Shown here: positions 2,073 to 12,195 of the stretch, one piece after another
How the letters are laid out: every line of letters begins with the position of its first letter
How positions within the stretch are numbered: position 1 is the first letter of the stretch
The notes under the pieces: generated by a model
Told to the model about the DNA's origin: nothing
What the model saw: only the letters and a program-made list of their open reading frames with translations
Database searches by the model: none
Source of the DNA: Ochromonas danica
Lineage: Eukaryota; Sar; Chrysophyceae; Chromulinales; Chromulinaceae
Assembly (NCBI GenBank): GCA_015146655.1
Contig: VKHL01000001.1
Coordinates: forward strand, 427,501 to 491,500
Reading direction: 5' to 3'
Length of the DNA stretch: 64,000 bases
Made by a program: the position numbers and the translations under genes

Positions 2073-4899
2073 CTAGCTCGTTTGGATGCGACTGTTCTTA
2101 GGGCATTGTCTTGTCAAATGATTCATCCAAGCATCATCACTGTCTTCCACAATCGATAGACATAAAGGGCAATACATGAAGTTGTTCGGTGCTGGTACAC
2201 ACTTGGGACTCTTTCTCCATTCATTAAATTCATTTTTGCGGATAGCAAGGCCTGTGATGTCGCACGGCACATAGCTGTCCTTGGCATCACACTCGTCCAA
2301 CAAATGCTCCGGTAATCCTGCTATCTCTACAATTTGGGCGCAAGAAGGACAAGAGATTAGCAGTGGACAGTCTTTCCAATAATGAAGATCCAGGTCATTC
2401 TCTTGCCAAGACTTATTCTGCACTCCGCAGAACATGCAAGAAGTAAAATCTTGAGGATCGCCTCCCTCATCTTCTGGGTCACCACCAACTGCCTTACGAG
2501 GCGAATTAAGAGGATAGCCTTCCTTTTGTTGCTGCACTTTGTTAGAACTGGTTGGGACTTTTCCTCCAGGGTGATGGGTGGCGTGCTGATGAGCCATGTC
2601 AGTCCGTTTGCCCGATGGACTCTCTCCCAACTCCTTCGCTGATGCATTGGGCCGGCCAGCTGGCGCAGCTTTACCTTGTGCTGCTCCACCTTTCGCATTG
2701 GCCTCAAAGGCAGCTTCATATTCTTCTCGTTGGTTCTTTCGCAACAATGCAAGTGTGGATTCTAGAGGGGGTGTACCCACTTGAGCCTGAATCGCCACGA
2801 TGAGATCTTTGGCTGCATCTCGCACCTCCTTGTTACTGTGTGCAAATGCTTGAGCAACTTTGGGAAAGTTTAACAAAGGATCCAATTGAAGTCCCGAAGA
2901 GCTGCCGATGCCATAAGTACGAACAATATCCTCTAACACCTCGAGTCGAGCCGCCAAAGCTCTCCAACTCTTCTGCTTCGCAGCCAAAGGTTTCGTCAAT
3001 TGAAATGCAATAGCAAATGGTCCAACAACAGGGCTTGCGGCGAGCAAATCAATACCCTTTCTTGCTCCATCACGCAAACGAGCATTGCCATCTGCAAGCT
3101 TGTCTGCAAACTGAACTATAACTGCCTCAAAAGCAGGTGCCACGGCAGCTTTGGCTAACTTTAGCCTAGAGATTAAAGAAATACATTGCGCAAGACAACA
3201 ATAAAGACAGCATAAAATAACTCAAGGAGTTGGTACGTACTGTTTGGCAAACTTGAGCACGGCTTCGAGAAGGTTCAAAGAGCTGAAGACAACTTGTTGC
3301 ATCTTATCCTCCGCCCCCACCTTTAGAACAGCCGCCAAGGCAGGCAATGCAGAGGAAAGAGTTGCGGAATCAACTGCAATGTCAGTTTGAAGTAGCTGCA
3401 GCAGTTTGATCATGCAAGCTTCATGAACACCCCAATTTTTGCTGAAAAGACAGCGTGCACGATACTCGCCGAACAGCTTTGTTATTCCTCGGATCTCGCA
3501 GAATTCACGAGTTGGTGCAGTCAACATTTCCGGAGTAGGAAGATCCATGAAGCCAGGGATGCCTTCAAGAGGATGCTCTCCGGGTGGGAAGCGTTCTAGT
3601 GGCATCCCAGTCCCTCCCGCCCCATCTCCTCCATCGTCTACAGATGGGTCTTTATCATCATACGTCATCTGAGCTTTGGGGCGGATAGGTCTGTCCGCGT
3701 CATCATCCAAGGCATCAGAATAGTTGGCAGCACCCTTGAGTGGGGGGGAACTGCTCTCAAAGCCAGGATGCTCAACAGTTTCCACTTTAACAGCTTTCTT
3801 TCCACTACTATTGAAGCTTTCTAAACGGGCCATCGGGGCTTTGCCACCTTTCCCGCCAACAGGCAGGTCATCAATGTTCACGGCTCCACGTGGAGTGATC
3901 CTGACTTCAGGTTCGCCAACGGCTTCTTCTTCCTCTATCATCCGAGAAGGTTTTCTAGCTCCAATCTTCTCAGAAACTAATCTGACACCTGGTATATCAA
4001 TTGCACGAATTTTCTTTTCAATTTCCAAACGTAAGCCATCACACTCGTCTTTGATTTCCTTTGCAAGGTCGTAATCCTCTGCTGCCACAGCTTCAGATTT
4101 GGCCATATCCAATTGAGCCAGGCGCGATCCTAGTGATTTCAAATCTTGTTCAACAACTTTGATTTGTTTTGCCGTTATATAGTCCTCAGATGCGATGGCC
4201 TTTGCTTTGGCCTCAGCTAGTTGACGTAATTTGTTGGCAGTTTGTGGGTCGAGATTGATGTCCACTGTGAGATCACTGCAAGGATTCTTGTAGATTGGTT
4301 TATCTCCTCTAACTGCTGGACTGACACTTTTAGCATCATCTCTATCATCTGCACCAAGCAAGGAGAGAGCTACCACTCCAACTTGATTAAATGTGTTCAT
4401 TTTATTGACATGGTTTTCAAATATTAACAATTTGAGAAAACTCCCCATATTATCCACAAAAACAGTTTTGAGTTCACGTGCTTGATAATTTGACCTTTCA
4501 TTACTATCTAAAGATAAATATCCAAGACGTTTGAAAGTAGCGGAAGCATAAGTTGGCCCTCGCCCCACAAAGATCTCCACTTTACTTGAAATCTTATTCT
4601 GATGACTAAGAAGCTGAATCTGTGTGACACGCTCTTCACCATCCAAAAACTGGAAACCAAGTTCTTGCGGATAAGAGCAAAACCGAACAGATTGCCAACC
4701 TTTGGTTGTTGGATGCACTTCATTGAGTTGCGAGGCAGGATAATCCGGATCTTCACTTGTAAAATGCACAACTTTGAATCTATTCGTTGTTGCAAAGCAT
4801 GCCATAAACATAAGATAACAAATAAACTAATCAACTAACTTATGAATATACAGTACATTGAAAAATTATCACTTACCTGATCTTAACTAAATTTGCCAT
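2073..4899 (-). CDS. CEP104: CEP104, ciliary-tip TOG-domain protein
   Basis: Ciliary tip protein that binds tubulin/EB1 and controls axoneme length. Three exons: 4877..4899, 3241..4779 and 2073..3165, all in phase, giving about 884 residues (human about 925). The 23-base first exon is required: it supplies MANLVKI, which splices onto RFKVVHFTSEDPDYPASQLN. The N-terminal jelly-roll domain (about 1-150) has the family motif KGWQSVRFCSYPQELGFQFL. It is followed by two UVR-like helical repeats (about 190-270), an acidic disordered linker, the TOG domain (about 400-640) and a C-terminal array of CxxC/HxxxC zinc fingers (about 764-880). It is divergent from the Tweety-like gene, with a shared 530-base upstream interval. 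Family assignment is strong; exon edges are by eye. Confidence 0.9.
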
Positions 4900-5429
4900 T
4901 TTTAGCGTTTCAATCAAGTCGAAAAAAAGGTAAAGGTTGTATCCAGAACTCCCAAGTATTCAATATGTTAAAAACCCTTGTTGTTAATTCAATTCACTCC
5001 AAGAAGAGTGGAAAAGATAGAAAGTTCTTCCAATATAGAATAGTAGATTACTAATCTAATCTATTCTAGATGATGATTTTGCTCATCCCCAACCCCCAAC
5101 AAGCAGACAAGAGGTTATGCCTGCGTGGCCAAAACCAAAACCGCTTTTCAAATTGGGTTTAACTTAACATTCTCTTGCGTGGTGCCAACAATGGTGCGGG
5201 TTGTGTAAGTGATCCAACGGATCCAACCCGCGGCTCCTCGGGTCTGGGAGATCATCCATTGATCTCTTCCTTCCCCTCGCGACCGTTCAACTCTTCATCA
5301 TCGCCACCATCATCATCAACATTTACATTTCCTTCCCTGTGATATCTGTTAACTGTTTCTTACTTGTACTATCCTCCATTTCTTCCTGTTTTATTATTAT
5401 CCTCTAGAAAAGACTAAGACTTAATCATC
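4900..5429. other. divergent intergenic region CEP104 / Tweety-like
   Basis: 530 bases between two divergent start codons, presumably both promoters. It holds the TTAACTTAA element at 5159-5167, preceded by a CTTTTCAAAT tract, and pyrimidine-rich runs just before the Tweety-like start. No coding potential seen. Confidence 0.5.
5144..5168 (+). promoter_or_regulatory. candidate promoter element (TTTTCAAAT...TTAACTTAA)
   Basis: A TTTTCAAATTGGG tract is followed directly by TTTAACTTAAC. Nearly the same arrangement stands at 40476..40499 upstream of MCM3. Single TTAACTTAA (or its complement) copies occur in many other upstream intervals. A regulatory role is inferred from recurrence only. Confidence 0.35.
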
Positions 5430-6933
5430 ATGACCGCAGGTGTTGCCAATGATTCTTATTCACCAAGTTGGATTGTCCGTCAAAGTCATAATCTCCTCCA
5501 TCTTGACTCAAGCTTGAAAACTGCGGGAAACGAGTTTGATATCTTCTATGATAACTATTGGAATAGTTATACCCGTTCTTTACTTCCAATCCCTATCATT
5601 TGTGGTGCATTGGGATTAATTGCTTTAGTTGTATTTCAGGTGTCCTTGTGTTCTCGTATGTGCAACACAAACTGCCGTTGTCTTCCTGAAGTCTCTGATC
5701 CAAATGCACAATTAACTCGTTTTGATATCAACAGGATCATACGCTCTCGTTACCACTTCCTTCTTGGTACGTTTATCTTCTTTGCCTTCTTGGCAATTGT
5801 CGCAGATCAAGGATTCATCTATGGCGGTGTCTCCCTCTCATCAGCTGTTAATACTGGACAAAATAGTCTTGACTATATCCATGATCTCTTCGTTGATTTG
5901 ACCAATGAGGGTAATAGTCTCTATATCTATGGTGAGGATTTGGACCATAACTTGGACCAGGCTGCTGCTTCGTGTCCTGGAGCTACCGTTTTGCAGCAGT
6001 ATCTGCCAGGGTATTTTACCAGTGTTGATGACTTCTTGGGATATGTAGATCCTGTTCCTGGTCAATGTGATGATGCAGAAAGTGGTATGGATCGCTGGGG
6101 AATATATTATAAGAATTGCAGCATTTGGGTCATGTATGGAGTTGTCCTAGGCACCATAGCTGTCTATGCACTTGGTATAATTTGTCAAAATAAAGCTGTC
6201 ATGCAAGTGGGTGTTGCCTTCTCTGAAATAATAATTCTCATCTTCTTTATCTTGGTAGCGGTGGAGATGGTTATTGTGGTAAGTTTTGTCCTCTTTGTTT
6301 GTTGTCAAGTCAACGCTGATTTCTAGTCTTATTTTTTAGATGGGCTTAGGTGATTATTGTATGAGTCCAGTGCTTTATGTACAAAATCTTGTTCCTCGTA
6401 GTATCTTTGATGTTACTGCATATTACACAACTTGTGAAGGTTCTAACCCATTGGATTCCTCTCTTGATGATCTCCAAACATTTTCCACCAATTTTCAAAT
6501 TGGTCTTGATGCTGTCAACACCGCATGCCCTGACAATAGCTATGTTGAAGCATGTTTTCCTATCATGGATGAAATCAATGTTGTTTTAAATACTGCTGTT
6601 GGTCAGTCCGCGTGTCCGCCTACCCAGAGTGAGATTAATGATGTCTTGGAGACTGGCATTTGTGAGCAAGGTTTTCGAGGAATCTATTCTATTTGGTTAG
6701 GTCAATATCTGACTGCTTCGTTTTTGCTGGTCAGTACCATTCTAGCCACTCTGCTTTATCAATATTTTGGATGCCATTGGGATGATGCGGAGGAATTGCC
6801 CCACAATCAGAACAACGTTCTTTTCACCCAAGCTGAGGTGCCAAGTGCTCCTTCTGGTTATCCTCCAAGTGGTATCACCTACAATAACCCTCAAGAGAGC
6901 ATTTACGTTGATAACGTGAAGATTATCCCTTAA
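5430..6933 (+). CDS. Tweety-like five-TM protein
   Basis: Two exons, 5430..6278 and 6340..6933 (intron 61 bases), give 480 residues. Topology is that of the Tweety (TTYH) family: TM1 (about 50-72) and TM2 (about 112-132) with a short Cys-rich loop, a first extracellular domain, TM3 and TM4 (about 222-283), a second extracellular domain, and TM5 (about 400-425). Motifs shared with animal TTYH proteins are G-x-x-D-Y-C with Y-V-x-N after TM4, Y-Y-x-x-C before an N-P pair, G-I-C-E-x-G-F before TM5, and NPQES near the C-terminus. Animal TTYH proteins are surface or endosomal membrane proteins linked to volume-regulated anion currents and lipid handling; their exact function is debated. Function here is inferred. 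Confidence 0.7.
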
Positions 6934-7251: not shown

Positions 7252-10200
7252 TCAACAAAGCAGCTCCTTTGCCGTTTCCATAAGAGCGTTCGATGCCGCA
7301 GGGTGTAAAGTGCGCAGTGTCACTCGCATTGCATTGGCTTGCACATTCATTTCAATCTTGGCTAGGCATCCTACATTAATCTTCTCGCCAGCAGGAGTAC
7401 GAGCGCCAGTCTTCAGAGAAGCAGCGCCATAGATCACATAATCAGAACTGTCCGGCAAGCCTTGCACGCGACAGAACTTCAATGTCTAATTTTTTTAAAA
7501 CATGCAATAAAACATGCAATAAAATCAAACGTTTTTGGCGGACAGGTAACAATGAGGACGTACCGATTGAAGTGCAGCTTGGATTTGGGAAGGCACAATA
7601 GGATAAGGCGGTTTGAGGACTTCTTGTCTTTCTTGCCCAGCCCCAACTAACTGACCCCAACGAGCGGAAAAATCATTTCCCTCCATGGGGATGGGCTCGT
7701 TAAATGAACTAACAGTGAGTGGAAGCTTGACGGTATTGTCTCTTGAACCCACTAGAGTATCCACATAGCGGATATTCAATAGAGGTCCAGGCGCTACGGG
7801 TTTCATGCACTCGCACATGATGGTTTGAGTGGCTTTCCCAAGACCAGAGATATTTTCATCCAAGGACGAAGCTTCCAAACGAAGCAGGCCAGCAGTGTCA
7901 CGAATGTCAATCTTCAACTTCGAGATGGACGCAGGACTTTGATTTGTGTACTGCAGACTGAGGCGGCATTGTGAACCGCGCACTTCAACACGAGCAGCAA
8001 CTTGCAAGGTGCCATCGTCATAGATTGGTCCACCATTCTGAGATAGTGCTGCTACCCACCAAGAATTATGTTGCGATAATTGAGCGGGAGAGAGAGGTGG
8101 TGCGACCTTCGCAGCAGGCGCCGCGGAGGCAGCAGGAGCGGAGAAAGCATCGGAGCCGAAGGGATCACCACCGAAAGTATCAGCTTTAGCAGAAGCAGAA
8201 GCAGACGAGGGGGTGGCAAACACAGACCGAAGAGAGGTTGGACGAGAACTACGATCACCAAAGGGATCGTCGCCGAAACCACTCCCACCACTGGGAGAAG
8301 GAGGTACCGGAGGTGCGCTGGGAGGTACAGGAGAATCGCTAATTTCAAGCCCAAGCAAATCCAACTCTTCTCCATATTGACCCGAAGTGTGGGCGTCATG
8401 ATCATCATCAGCAATTTCATGTAAGCCACGCTTACCAGTGGGGGCGACCTCTGTGGCAACAGGCTCCTCCACAACATCAAACGCTCCCTCTTGGGTCTCC
8501 AGCCGAATGTGCATCACACTCATGAATTTCTCAATGAAGTACTCAATAGCAGTGGCCAATCGCTGAGCTTCTTTTGTGCGAAAGATATACTCATATCGTC
8601 GACTGAAAGATGAATCTGCGAAGACGTTGACTAATAGAGCCAATTTACCATCGGGATTCATTATAGACCACTTGTAAAAGTCTGTGTAAACCCAAAAGTA
8701 CAACTCTCTTTCTCCCACATCCTTCACATTGGGATCAGGAATACAGACACTAACACCATTCGCAGACACTTTCAAAGCGGTAGAATAATCAGTGGATGGT
8801 AAAGACTGAAGAGGATCCAGCTTGGGCTTCACCTTAAACACCAATTCCTCATCAGGTAAAATTGCAACATCTTCATCAACGGCACGGGTTATAAGCTGGA
8901 GCCAACGTTGAACATTTTCTTGGCTTTCTGCACACAGAGTCCATTCACGCTCAGTGGTAACAATATCGAAACAATAGGGAGGAGTATCAGGATTGTCCGA
9001 TTTATTTGATCCTGGGCGAATGAACGTAGCCTTTGCCAAATCCACAATATTACGATGATTCTTCTCGGAGGTATACATGGGACTTTCGGTAAAGTCACTG
9101 TAGTAGACTAAAAAGTGTCCTTGAGAGGTCTTGTAAAGAACAAAGTAGCGCTTGATCCAGCTTTTGTTGTTTCCGACGCCCACTCCACCTTGCTTCAACA
9201 ACCATCCCTGGTGCATAACCACCTTGTGCCAATGTCTTTTGACATTCCTATTCTCGTTGGGAACCACCTTCGGCTCTTTGCTTGTGGACATCACGCCAGC
9301 TGCCAATGAAGCTCTGCGAGGAGCCATTTTGCCACCAGGACGAACAACCAGACCATCCTGATCAACCACTTCTGTTTGACCCTGAGGAGATTCGGGTGGA
9401 GGAACTTCACCCGAAAGTGTCTGAACAGAGACAATCGGACGCCCGTGGGTACTACCAAGCTTTACCAGCTGCGAGTTGCCGTTATTAACATGGTAACTAT
9501 TCCAGAAATACTCCATGGTGTGTTTCACATCCCGCACAAAGTGAACGCCAAAGTAGATTGAATCACCACTACTCTTCAGAGTCACTTCGATTCCACTATC
9601 ATTCACACGATATTTATCATTGTCAATAGCATTCCACTGCTCGATGTCGTCGAAAAAGAACTCCACGCGAACGTCGGAATGATCACCGCGAGGTTTAAAT
9701 ATCAATGCCTCGTCACTAATAAGCAAAACAGAATCTGATCGGTACTGATTTGCAACAGAGGCAGCACCACGAACATTGAGAAGTGGGAAAGTATTATGAC
9801 CTTCATAGATATGTTGCAAGGCAATAGCTAAGCGACGAGACTCGCCTTGAGGGCAAGGACGATAGCTTCCGCGATGTAGATCCAAAGCGGTATTACGCAT
9901 TTCATTCAAAGGAGGAAGCTTGCCGGTGGCCAAATGAGATAAGTTGGGGCGCTTGCGCTGGAAAGGTTTTGGTTTTGTTGCTCCAGCAAACATACCAACA
10001 TACATTGGAGCAGGATTCTTCACACTACGATTAGAATGAGCAGCAGCTGTAAGCCTTAATTTCAACTCTTGTTCAAATTCTACCGAATTGGAAAGTGTCA
10101 ATATGACATAGTTGTCTTCATCAGAAGCAATCAGCGTTAACTTCAGCTCAGAATTCGCATGATCCCAGGCAATCCCAGTAATCTAAACAGGCAATAATGT

Positions 10201-10555
10201 TTAAAAAATGTGATCAAGAATCGATTTAAGAAAAGCTTACTTGTTCATAGGAGAGCTCAAATTCGTTTTTCTTCGTTATCCCCACTTCTTCGATTAAATC
10301 CATCCCACTGCCTTTACAGACAACCGTGATGGGACGCTTAGCAAACTTACATTCTCCAAATCTACTGGTTAGATTCGATCCTGCTACGGTGTGTAAATCT
10401 GCCTTAAACGAGTGATCGAAATGCTGTAAATTTCTTTGGGCAATGGTGTTAGGCTCGTCCGTCTGGAAGATATAATTCTCTGATTAAAACCAATATTCCT
10501 TTCAACTTCTCAAGAAAGAGAGACTTACCAAAGGGGAAGATCCTTGATTTCCCAT
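7252..10555 (-). CDS. PH-domain protein with C-terminal AP-2 alpha-type appendage (putative clathrin adaptor)
   Basis: Four exons: 10529..10555, 10241..10462, 7564..10182 and 7252..7485, all phase 0, giving 1033 residues. A canonical PH domain lies at about 405-520 (HQGWLLKQ, SWIKRYFVLY, C-terminal ENVQRWLQLI helix). Regions at about 60-135, 205-315 and 535-640 look like further PH-type folds. The disordered linker (about 660-785) has a clathrin-box-like LLGLE (about 692-696), a Pro-rich run and two DPF motifs in FGDDPFGD and GGDPFGSDAF. The C-terminus (about 790-1033) aligns with the AP-2 alpha-adaptin ear: Ig-like part with WW and YTNQS, platform part with SARWGQL, KINVGCLAKIEMN and MRVTLRT. 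The adaptin trunk is absent. I infer a monomeric endocytic adaptor at PIP-rich membranes; no experimental analogue is known to me. Confidence 0.8.
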
Positions 10556-11061: not shown

Positions 11062-12195
11062 CTAAAAAGACGTGTAAGCCATCATATTCAAATGCATAGC
11101 AGACACTAGATTTGATTCATCTAGGTGCATTACTCCCAAACCATCCAGTTGGAAAGAGTACAAATTCGTCGGGCCAGCAGCAATAACTGAATCGTGTGAA
11201 GGTCGATATACCACTCCACAATCAGACGGTTCTCTTTCAACCTCCTTCAAAATGTTTGAGACAGTTTGAGTTTCATCACAAGACAGTTCATCTGCTGTGC
11301 TCAAACCATCCGAAAAGCTCTGCAACAAATCAGCTTCGCTGTCACTAGATACAATGGATGAACCTTCGCAATAGCGGGCGCTGTCACCAACAGAGAAAAC
11401 AGAATCATTCACAACTGCAGGTAATGCACGAGGCGGTGGCATTAATACTGTCCCCATCATTCGATACTTGAAATTAAGAACGCATGTGCCATCTGATCGT
11501 ACACATATGGTTGAATGACCAAGCTGCATTGCAAAATCAGGCTTGCACTTCAGGTTGTTAGTCCACACTTCAGCAAAGCATGCGGTACTATTCTGAGTAT
11601 AACTCTTCTTGCCAGTTTTCAAGGACAAGTCATTGGGGACTTGATGATAAAAAACACAATCAGGACGATAATAAGTGTTCAGAAATTGGTACAAGACAGT
11701 AGAATCGCACGCATTCAAGACATTCCTAAAAATTGCTGGAAAACTGCGGCGGGGATCGCTCTTTAAAATTTTGGGAACAATAATGTGAGGAATAATCCGC
11801 CCATCTCCACGTTTATTAAAATATATTCCACCATCATGCCCCAAAGAGTTTTTCTCAAAGCGTGAACGCTTTCTGGGTCTGGAAGTTTTCGTGGCATGCT
11901 TCTTGTTCAGCAACTGAATCAGCTTCTCACTGAACACAGGAGCACGTCAGTTTTAATGAACATCTCAAGTGAGAGAGAATAGTTACTAACCTGTCACTGC
12001 TGCTCGAGGGTTGAGGAGGAATGTTGGTTAGGGAAGAACTACTGGTCAGTGAATTATCTTCAAAATCGACGAAAGGGTCGAAATCTATAAAGCCAATCAG
12101 AATATTTAGCAAAAAATAATCATCATTACCACAGTCACAAGCATATTCTTACCACCATAATCATTCACAAGAGTATCAAAATGGTCAACCTGCAT
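11062..12195 (-). CDS. hypothetical protein, basic NLS-like segment and possible NTF2-like region
   Basis: Not recognised by name. Three exons fit in phase: 12153..12195, 11991..12084 and 11062..11929, giving 334 residues starting MQVDHFDTLVNDYG. The N-terminus is acidic with a Ser-rich run. Around residue 60-70 a basic cluster (TSRPRKRSRFE) resembles a nuclear localisation signal. The middle (about 100-205: FRNVLNACDSTVLYQFLNTY, then alternating strands) has a pattern that could be an NTF2/SnoaL-like cone fold; this is weak inference. The C-terminal third is acidic and Ser-rich. Such proteins in stramenopiles are often transcription-related, but I cannot show that here. Confidence 0.55.

Follow-up and report, generated by a model that had tools for sequence, protein, structure and literature searches.

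AP-2 alpha is bound to the membrane through its trunk and to its partners through its ear. The GGAs combine VHS and GAT domains with a gamma-type ear that lacks a platform, and NECAP has a PH-type fold tied to alpha-ear biology. Ears that stand without a trunk have been described in alveolates. In Toxoplasma there are two divergent AP-2 alpha-related proteins, namely AP-2 alpha itself, whose ear is divergent, and KAE, which has a conserved C-terminal ear (PMC10105704). In the account given by its authors, KAE has beyond the ear no similarity to AP-2 alpha and no conserved domain save coiled-coil motifs; its ear, and not TgAP-2 alpha, binds Eps15L via WxxF at a specialised endocytic pore (PMC10105704). 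The same authors place the division into AP-2 alpha and KAE in all alveolates and report K13 only from Myzozoa (PMC10105704), and the word stramenopile is absent from the main text of that paper. In Plasmodium, KIC5 is reported to have alpha-ear subdomains without Adaptin_N, and KIC4, by its predicted structure, to be a GGA/beta hybrid that joins VHS and GAT domains to a beta-type platform; the domains of both were recognised largely from predicted structures (PMC10718435). The same source terms TgKAE a homologue of KIC4 (PMC10718435). Since a beta-type platform in KIC4 sits uneasily with an alpha-type ear in KAE, the make-up of KAE is not settled.

Here, we analysed a gene in a stretch of DNA of 64,000 nucleotides (the window). 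Read from the DNA, it lies on the minus strand at positions 7252-10555, consists of four exons and three introns and encodes a protein of 1033 aa. The introns, of 66, 58 and 78 nt, are all GT-AG and phase 0, and an in-frame TAA is found 7 codons 5' of the ATG. The features are as follows.

7252-10555, minus strand: whole gene, 1033-aa protein (open reading frame and splice-site reading of the DNA)
10529-10555, minus strand: exon 1, aa 1-9, MGNQGSSPL (DNA reading)
10463-10528, minus strand: intron 1 (DNA reading)
10241-10462, minus strand: exon 2, aa 10-83 (DNA reading)
10183-10240, minus strand: intron 2 (DNA reading)
7564-10182, minus strand: exon 3, aa 84-956 (single open frame with PH, hinge, ear sandwich and start of platform)
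7486-7563, minus strand: intron 3, within the platform (DNA reading)
7252-7485, minus strand: exon 4, aa 957-1033 and stop (DNA reading; its own Alpha_adaptin_C score is above cut-off)
10027-10432, minus strand: region d1, aa 20-135, spanning intron 2; claimed PH-like, unsupported (Pfam, PDB, profile)
9427-9864, minus strand: region d2, aa 190-335; claimed PH-like, unsupported (Pfam, PDB, profile)
8878-9219, minus strand: PH domain, aa 405-518 (PF00169, E 1.1e-16)
8467-8859, minus strand: region d4, aa 525-655; claimed PH-like, unsupported (Pfam, PDB, profile, AlphaFold)
8344-8358, minus strand: clathrin-box-like LLGLE, aa 692-696 (protein sequence, shuffles)
8260-8268, minus strand: DPF motif 1, aa 722-724 (protein sequence, shuffles)
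8158-8166, minus strand: DPF motif 2, aa 756-758 (protein sequence, shuffles)
7762-8028, minus strand: appendage sandwich Alpha_adaptinC2, aa 802-890 (E 4.5e-8)
7276-7704, minus strand: appendage platform Alpha_adaptin_C, aa 910-1026, with intron 3 inside (E 1.2e-11)

Exon 3 is one open frame of 873 aa that includes the PH domain, the hinge, the sandwich and the first part of the platform. Exon 4 by itself scores 28.7 bits against the end of Alpha_adaptin_C, over the cut-off of 25.4. The search of the gene's own genome (31.2 Mb, 337 contigs) was run exon by exon, and the platform accordingly came out as two pieces corresponding to the two exons, with the order of the profile kept: the first piece covers its positions 1-52 and, at 20.1 bits, stays under the cut-off, whereas the second covers positions 75-111 and, at 26.6 bits, exceeds it. 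The first-pass annotation had allowed that the last exons might belong to a separate gene. There is no sign of this, with PH, hinge and sandwich in one exon and exon 4 recognised alone as Alpha_adaptin_C; for the gene model as read from the DNA, a merger of two genes was thus rejected as very unlikely. Within exon 3, positions 9952-10115 of the window (about aa 106-160) match a stretch near the end of contig C48 (L024:2749-2912) over 164 bp at 97.6% identity. There, the copy sits in an unrelated frame of 114 aa, which points either to recent copying of part of the exon or to a join made during assembly. Collections of viral and genome contigs were also searched for relatives and yielded 8 and 13 pattern matches, respectively. 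None of them could be confirmed, which is no surprise given that the gene is eukaryotic.

By its sequence matches, the C-terminus of the protein is a complete AP-2 alpha appendage, comprising sandwich and platform. Alpha_adaptinC2 (PF02883) was found at aa 802-890 with E 4.5e-8 and Alpha_adaptin_C (PF02296) at aa 910-1026 with E 1.2e-11 and 45.2 bits, both over the Pfam cut-off. A phmmer search of the PDB with aa 780-1033 returned seven AP-2 alpha sequences (E 4e-20 to 1.5e-18), the remaining three matches being antibody chains (E 0.026, 0.026 and 0.67). From these matches we assign the ear to the AP-2 alpha type, with both subdomains present. This bears out the alpha-adaptin appendage proposed in the first-pass annotation, where a C-terminus of some other kind had been named as the result that would speak against it. 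The absence of an adaptin trunk, claimed there too, also stands: Adaptin_N was sought in the whole protein with Pfam at E up to 1, and no match was obtained.

In order to compare the binding surfaces of the ear, we used a list of 12 positions which we take to make up the platform pocket; of these, W840 is documented in the literature drawn on here. W840 is the centre of this pocket, and DPF and FxDxF bind the platform, WxxF the sandwich, in the account of PMC5694535. In an alignment with mouse AP-2 alpha and the AP-2 alpha of the same genome, the window ear keeps W840 (aa 925 of the protein), E907, R916 and R920, with R905 replaced by K. Identity with mouse reaches 8 of the 12 pocket positions as compared to 57 of the 212 others (Fisher p 0.006, for this list). 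The DPF/FxDxF platform pocket is, as judged from the alignment, kept in the window ear. The sandwich side site for WxxF, which we take to consist of K727, F740 and Q782, is not kept, the residues at these positions being R, Q and K. In the AP-2 alpha of the same genome they are A, T and E, so that the side site is likewise not kept. We also considered whether the window ear is a recent copy of the ear of this AP-2 alpha, which is unlikely: it is identical to that ear at 59 of 247 aligned positions and to the mouse ear at 65 of 224, and the two reference ears share 53 of 223. A further question was whether the genome's own AP-2 alpha has a degenerate ear, as in Toxoplasma, and here the scores point both ways. 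In comparison with the mouse ear, this ear reaches 55 bits, as against 75 bits for the window ear, and its sandwich stays below the Pfam cut-off; against the Pfam platform profile the order is reversed (50.9 bits for AP-2 alpha, 45.2 bits for the window ear).

Between the N-terminal part and the ear lies a linker of 135 aa (aa 656-790), in which the clathrin-box-like LLGLE (aa 692-696) and the two DPF motifs (aa 722-724 and 756-758) are present as had been claimed. At least two DP[FW] motifs occurred by chance in 0.21% of 20,000 linker shuffles and the clathrin-box pattern in 2.4%, all shuffle figures here being uncorrected for the several motifs sought; the clathrin box together with at least two DP[FW] was obtained in none of the 20,000. 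When the whole protein was shuffled (n = 5,000), these values were 1.8% for at least two DP[FW] and 50% for the box pattern. Thus, LLGLE is meaningful solely through its position in the hinge, and a second match to the box pattern, at aa 849, falls within the folded sandwich. The AP-2 alpha of the same genome, read from its sequence, has SVDLLSLDD in the hinge directly before its ear, and an adaptin that we label gamma-like has LLDLD in its hinge; both speak for the box, LLxL[DE] in hinges being local usage. On the other side, the hinge sequence of an adaptin that we label beta-like, LLDLLDD, falls outside the strict box pattern.

The canonical PH domain of the first-pass annotation was confirmed with Pfam (PF00169, aa 405-518, E 1.1e-16, 61.7 bits over a cut-off of 25.1), and it has the top score among the 83 PH matches listed for the genome. 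The region is basic (pI 8.6). Lipid-binding PH domains carry a basic signature, K-x(n)-[KR]-x-R. Judged by eye, the strict form is unmatched here, while basic residues are present: in LLKQGGVGVGNNKSWIKRYF, I occupies the position at which K or R is expected from the signature. Lipid binding by this domain is uncertain because the strict signature is incomplete. The start of exon 1, MGNQGS, fits the pattern for N-myristoylation.

For the further claim, that the chain probably holds another three folds of PH type, no support was obtained at the sequence level in Pfam, the PDB, a PH profile or internal similarity. Pieces covering nearly all of d1, d2 and d4 gave no Pfam PH match at E up to 10, a setting at which the filters of HMMER hide many weak matches, and the lone Pfam match in these pieces was the unrelated UvrB_inter (E 0.043). 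Sequence searches of the PDB with d1, d2 and d4 returned 0, 0 and 5 matches, the five being unrelated (E at least 0.58) and none a PH domain. A profile built from 25 PH domains of the genome, including the window protein's own, detected no signal in the three regions beyond reversed and shuffled controls. Comparison within the protein revealed no clear internal similarity, the top pair (d2-d4) being matched by 15 of 300 shuffles. AlphaFold run without relatives gave a mean pLDDT of 35 for aa 84-657 and of 34 for aa 520-655; these low-confidence models have strands followed by a helix, which would be compatible with a PH fold and is not evidence for one. All three regions are acidic, with net charges of -5, -3 and -5 for d1, d2 and d4.

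The genome also encodes a full AP-2 alpha on contig C26, in which the trunk was detected with E 1e-102 and the ear is present (Alpha_adaptin_C 50.9 bits, over cut-off; Alpha_adaptinC2 21.9 bits, below the cut-off of 27.6). Alpha_adaptin_C has three matches in the genome, this AP-2 alpha and the two exons of the window gene. As this ordinary AP-2 alpha possesses both a trunk and an ear, the window ear is an additional one. NECAP gave one strong match (E 6e-47) and one weaker match, ANTH one weak match (E 6e-5) and EH five matches, thus parts of the clathrin-uptake machinery exist in this genome. We then took seven loci with EH, ANTH or NECAP matches and looked for DP[FW] in the two longest open frames at each, which are partial genes and do not include the 182-aa NECAP frame, and found none; inspection of that NECAP frame by eye also gave none. 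As these partial genes show no DP[FW], the only known DPF ligand here is the protein itself. One EH-domain protein (locus L062, contig C69:11419-14613) contains repeated DF-rich acidic motifs such as DDFGDF, and we take it to resemble an adaptor partner of the gamma-synergin/aftiphilin type.

Light-harvesting proteins gave 47 matches in the genome, several being exons of one gene. One of these proteins had 19 matches in the PDB, to chains named LHCI, XLH, VCPI and FCPI; the top seven matches are to long LHCI chains, for which the score adds up several repeats. The host is therefore photosynthetic and probably an ochrophyte. Four light-harvesting matches with equal scores lie at a regular spacing of 2,407 bases on contig C224 (8673-16382), as a tandem array. 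Elsewhere in the window, positions 3225-4826 of the minus strand hold a CEP104 gene (CEP104_N, E 2e-42). CEP104 is a protein of the ciliary tip, and its gene near this locus suggests a flagellated stage. Positions 5418-6930 of the plus strand hold a Tweety-like membrane protein in two open frames, both below the Pfam cut-off, and a 294-aa open frame at 11065-11946 of the minus strand has no Pfam match at E up to 0.01.

What might such a protein do? We consider the chance slightly better than even that it is a single-chain endocytic adaptor or accessory hub, that is, the hinge-and-ear module of AP-2 alpha placed on a different chassis, in which a PH domain and the unassigned regions d1, d2 and d4 take the place of the trunk. 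The PH domain, perhaps together with N-myristoylation, would hold the protein at a phosphoinositide-bearing membrane, a task which in AP-2 falls to the trunk. Clathrin would be recruited through LLGLE, and the ear would gather accessory proteins bearing DPF or FxDxF, including further copies of the protein via its own DPF motifs, which could give rise to chains of copies or to a closed form. By analogy with KAE, which stands beside AP-2 in Toxoplasma, the hub would operate at the plasma membrane beside the ordinary AP-2 and not instead of it. This reading is favoured by the PDB search, in which the C-terminus had significant matches to AP-2 alpha ears and to nothing else, and it has a precedent in TgKAE, as far as described a trunkless ear at an endocytic site (PMC10105704). 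The membrane address is its weakest step, because the lipid signature of the PH domain is incomplete and the regions d1, d2 and d4 are acidic, which is no help to membrane binding. The WxxF site that KAE uses is not kept.

Since the DPF pocket is kept, auto-inhibition by contact between the ear and a DPF motif is possible. The protein could then be a negative regulator, a PH-held free ear that competes with AP-2 for accessory proteins or is kept shut by the DPF motifs of its own chain until it is released. We regard this as unlikely, even though one chain holds both the receptor pocket and DPF ligands and a separate full AP-2 alpha exists in the genome: DP[FW] peptides are given as weak ligands of the alpha ear (120 uM; PMC5694535), an affinity which linkage in one chain would raise. 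No greater chance is given to a scaffold at some other membrane (trans-Golgi, endosome or flagellar base), in which an alpha ear would have no role in endocytosis. The incomplete PH signature leaves the membrane unfixed, and the BBSome uses both ears and PH folds; however, the ear is of alpha type with an alpha pocket, and the hinge box resembles that of the genome's own AP-2 alpha. Finally, the gene model might wrongly join two genes, one for a PH protein and one for an ear, or the assembly might be in error. The model is built from DNA alone, and the 164-bp stretch of exon 3 that recurs with 97.6% identity on contig C48 indicates that part of the locus was once copied or mis-joined. However, that copy lies far from the PH-ear junction, the 873-aa frame runs from PH to platform and the same domain goes on in exon 4. 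An artefact of merged genes is very unlikely because PH and sandwich share this one exon, and we assign only a very slight residual chance to errors of either kind.

If the preferred reading, the single-chain endocytic hub, holds, a PH domain joined in an alga to the ear alone of AP-2 suggests that clathrin uptake can also be run in a second manner, by a single chain. Finding a PH domain and a trunkless alpha ear together in a eukaryote that is photosynthetic would widen the division of labour between KAE and AP-2 alpha, and in a one-chain system membrane binding, clathrin binding and hub function would be separable by mutation. More tentatively, and as a proposal that we think rather less probable than its opposite, the split of trunkless alpha ears might be an older or a repeated event, and would then not have arisen in alveolates in connection with K13 and the pellicle. 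Non-alveolate algae would then possess a PH-anchored, AP-independent, second single-chain endocytic adaptor with an ear and its own DPF ligands, able to self-assemble.

The first-pass annotation knew of no described protein with this set of parts. It overlooked the trunkless alveolate ears (KAE, KIC5 and KIC4), although the portions of the literature drawn on here mention a PH domain for none of the three; searches of the literature for a protein with both PH and alpha ear showed none in the titles and the starts of abstracts that were listed. According to InterPro, as quoted in PMC10718435, Adaptin_N accompanies the alpha-ear domains in more than 97% of the proteins that have them. With up to 3% left as trunkless on this quoted figure, the databases may already contain further PH-ear proteins that nobody has remarked on.

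The closest comparison is with KAE. As in KAE, a trunkless chain ends in an AP-2 alpha ear, the rest of the chain bears no relation to AP-2 alpha, and the same genome encodes an AP-2 alpha of its own that has the trunk. The window protein differs by its additional PH domain, DPF motifs and clathrin-box-like motif. KAE, as described, has a working WxxF site and an alveolate parasite as host, whereas here the side-site residues are not kept and the host is no alveolate parasite. With KIC5 and KIC4 it shares an adaptor ear without an Adaptin_N trunk, of alpha type in its subdomains in the case of KIC5; neither of these is described with a PH domain in the account available, and KIC4 has VHS, GAT and a beta-type platform. 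The hinge and the two-part appendage with its W840 pocket are those of AP-2 alpha, but for lack of a trunk no assembly with beta2, mu2 and sigma2 is predicted. The single-chain plan of membrane module, hinge with clathrin box and ear recalls the GGAs, yet membership in that family was rejected, the ear being of alpha type and a Pfam search at E up to 1 having given neither VHS nor GAT. NECAP differs in having no ear of its own, and the genome has a separate match to it. Judged on sequence, the window protein is thus of a known kind, that of the trunkless ear proteins; its novelty lies in having a PH domain and in occurring in a photosynthetic host, probably an ochrophyte, and the hinge with DPF and clathrin box and the lost WxxF site set it further apart from the trunkless ears described in alveolates.
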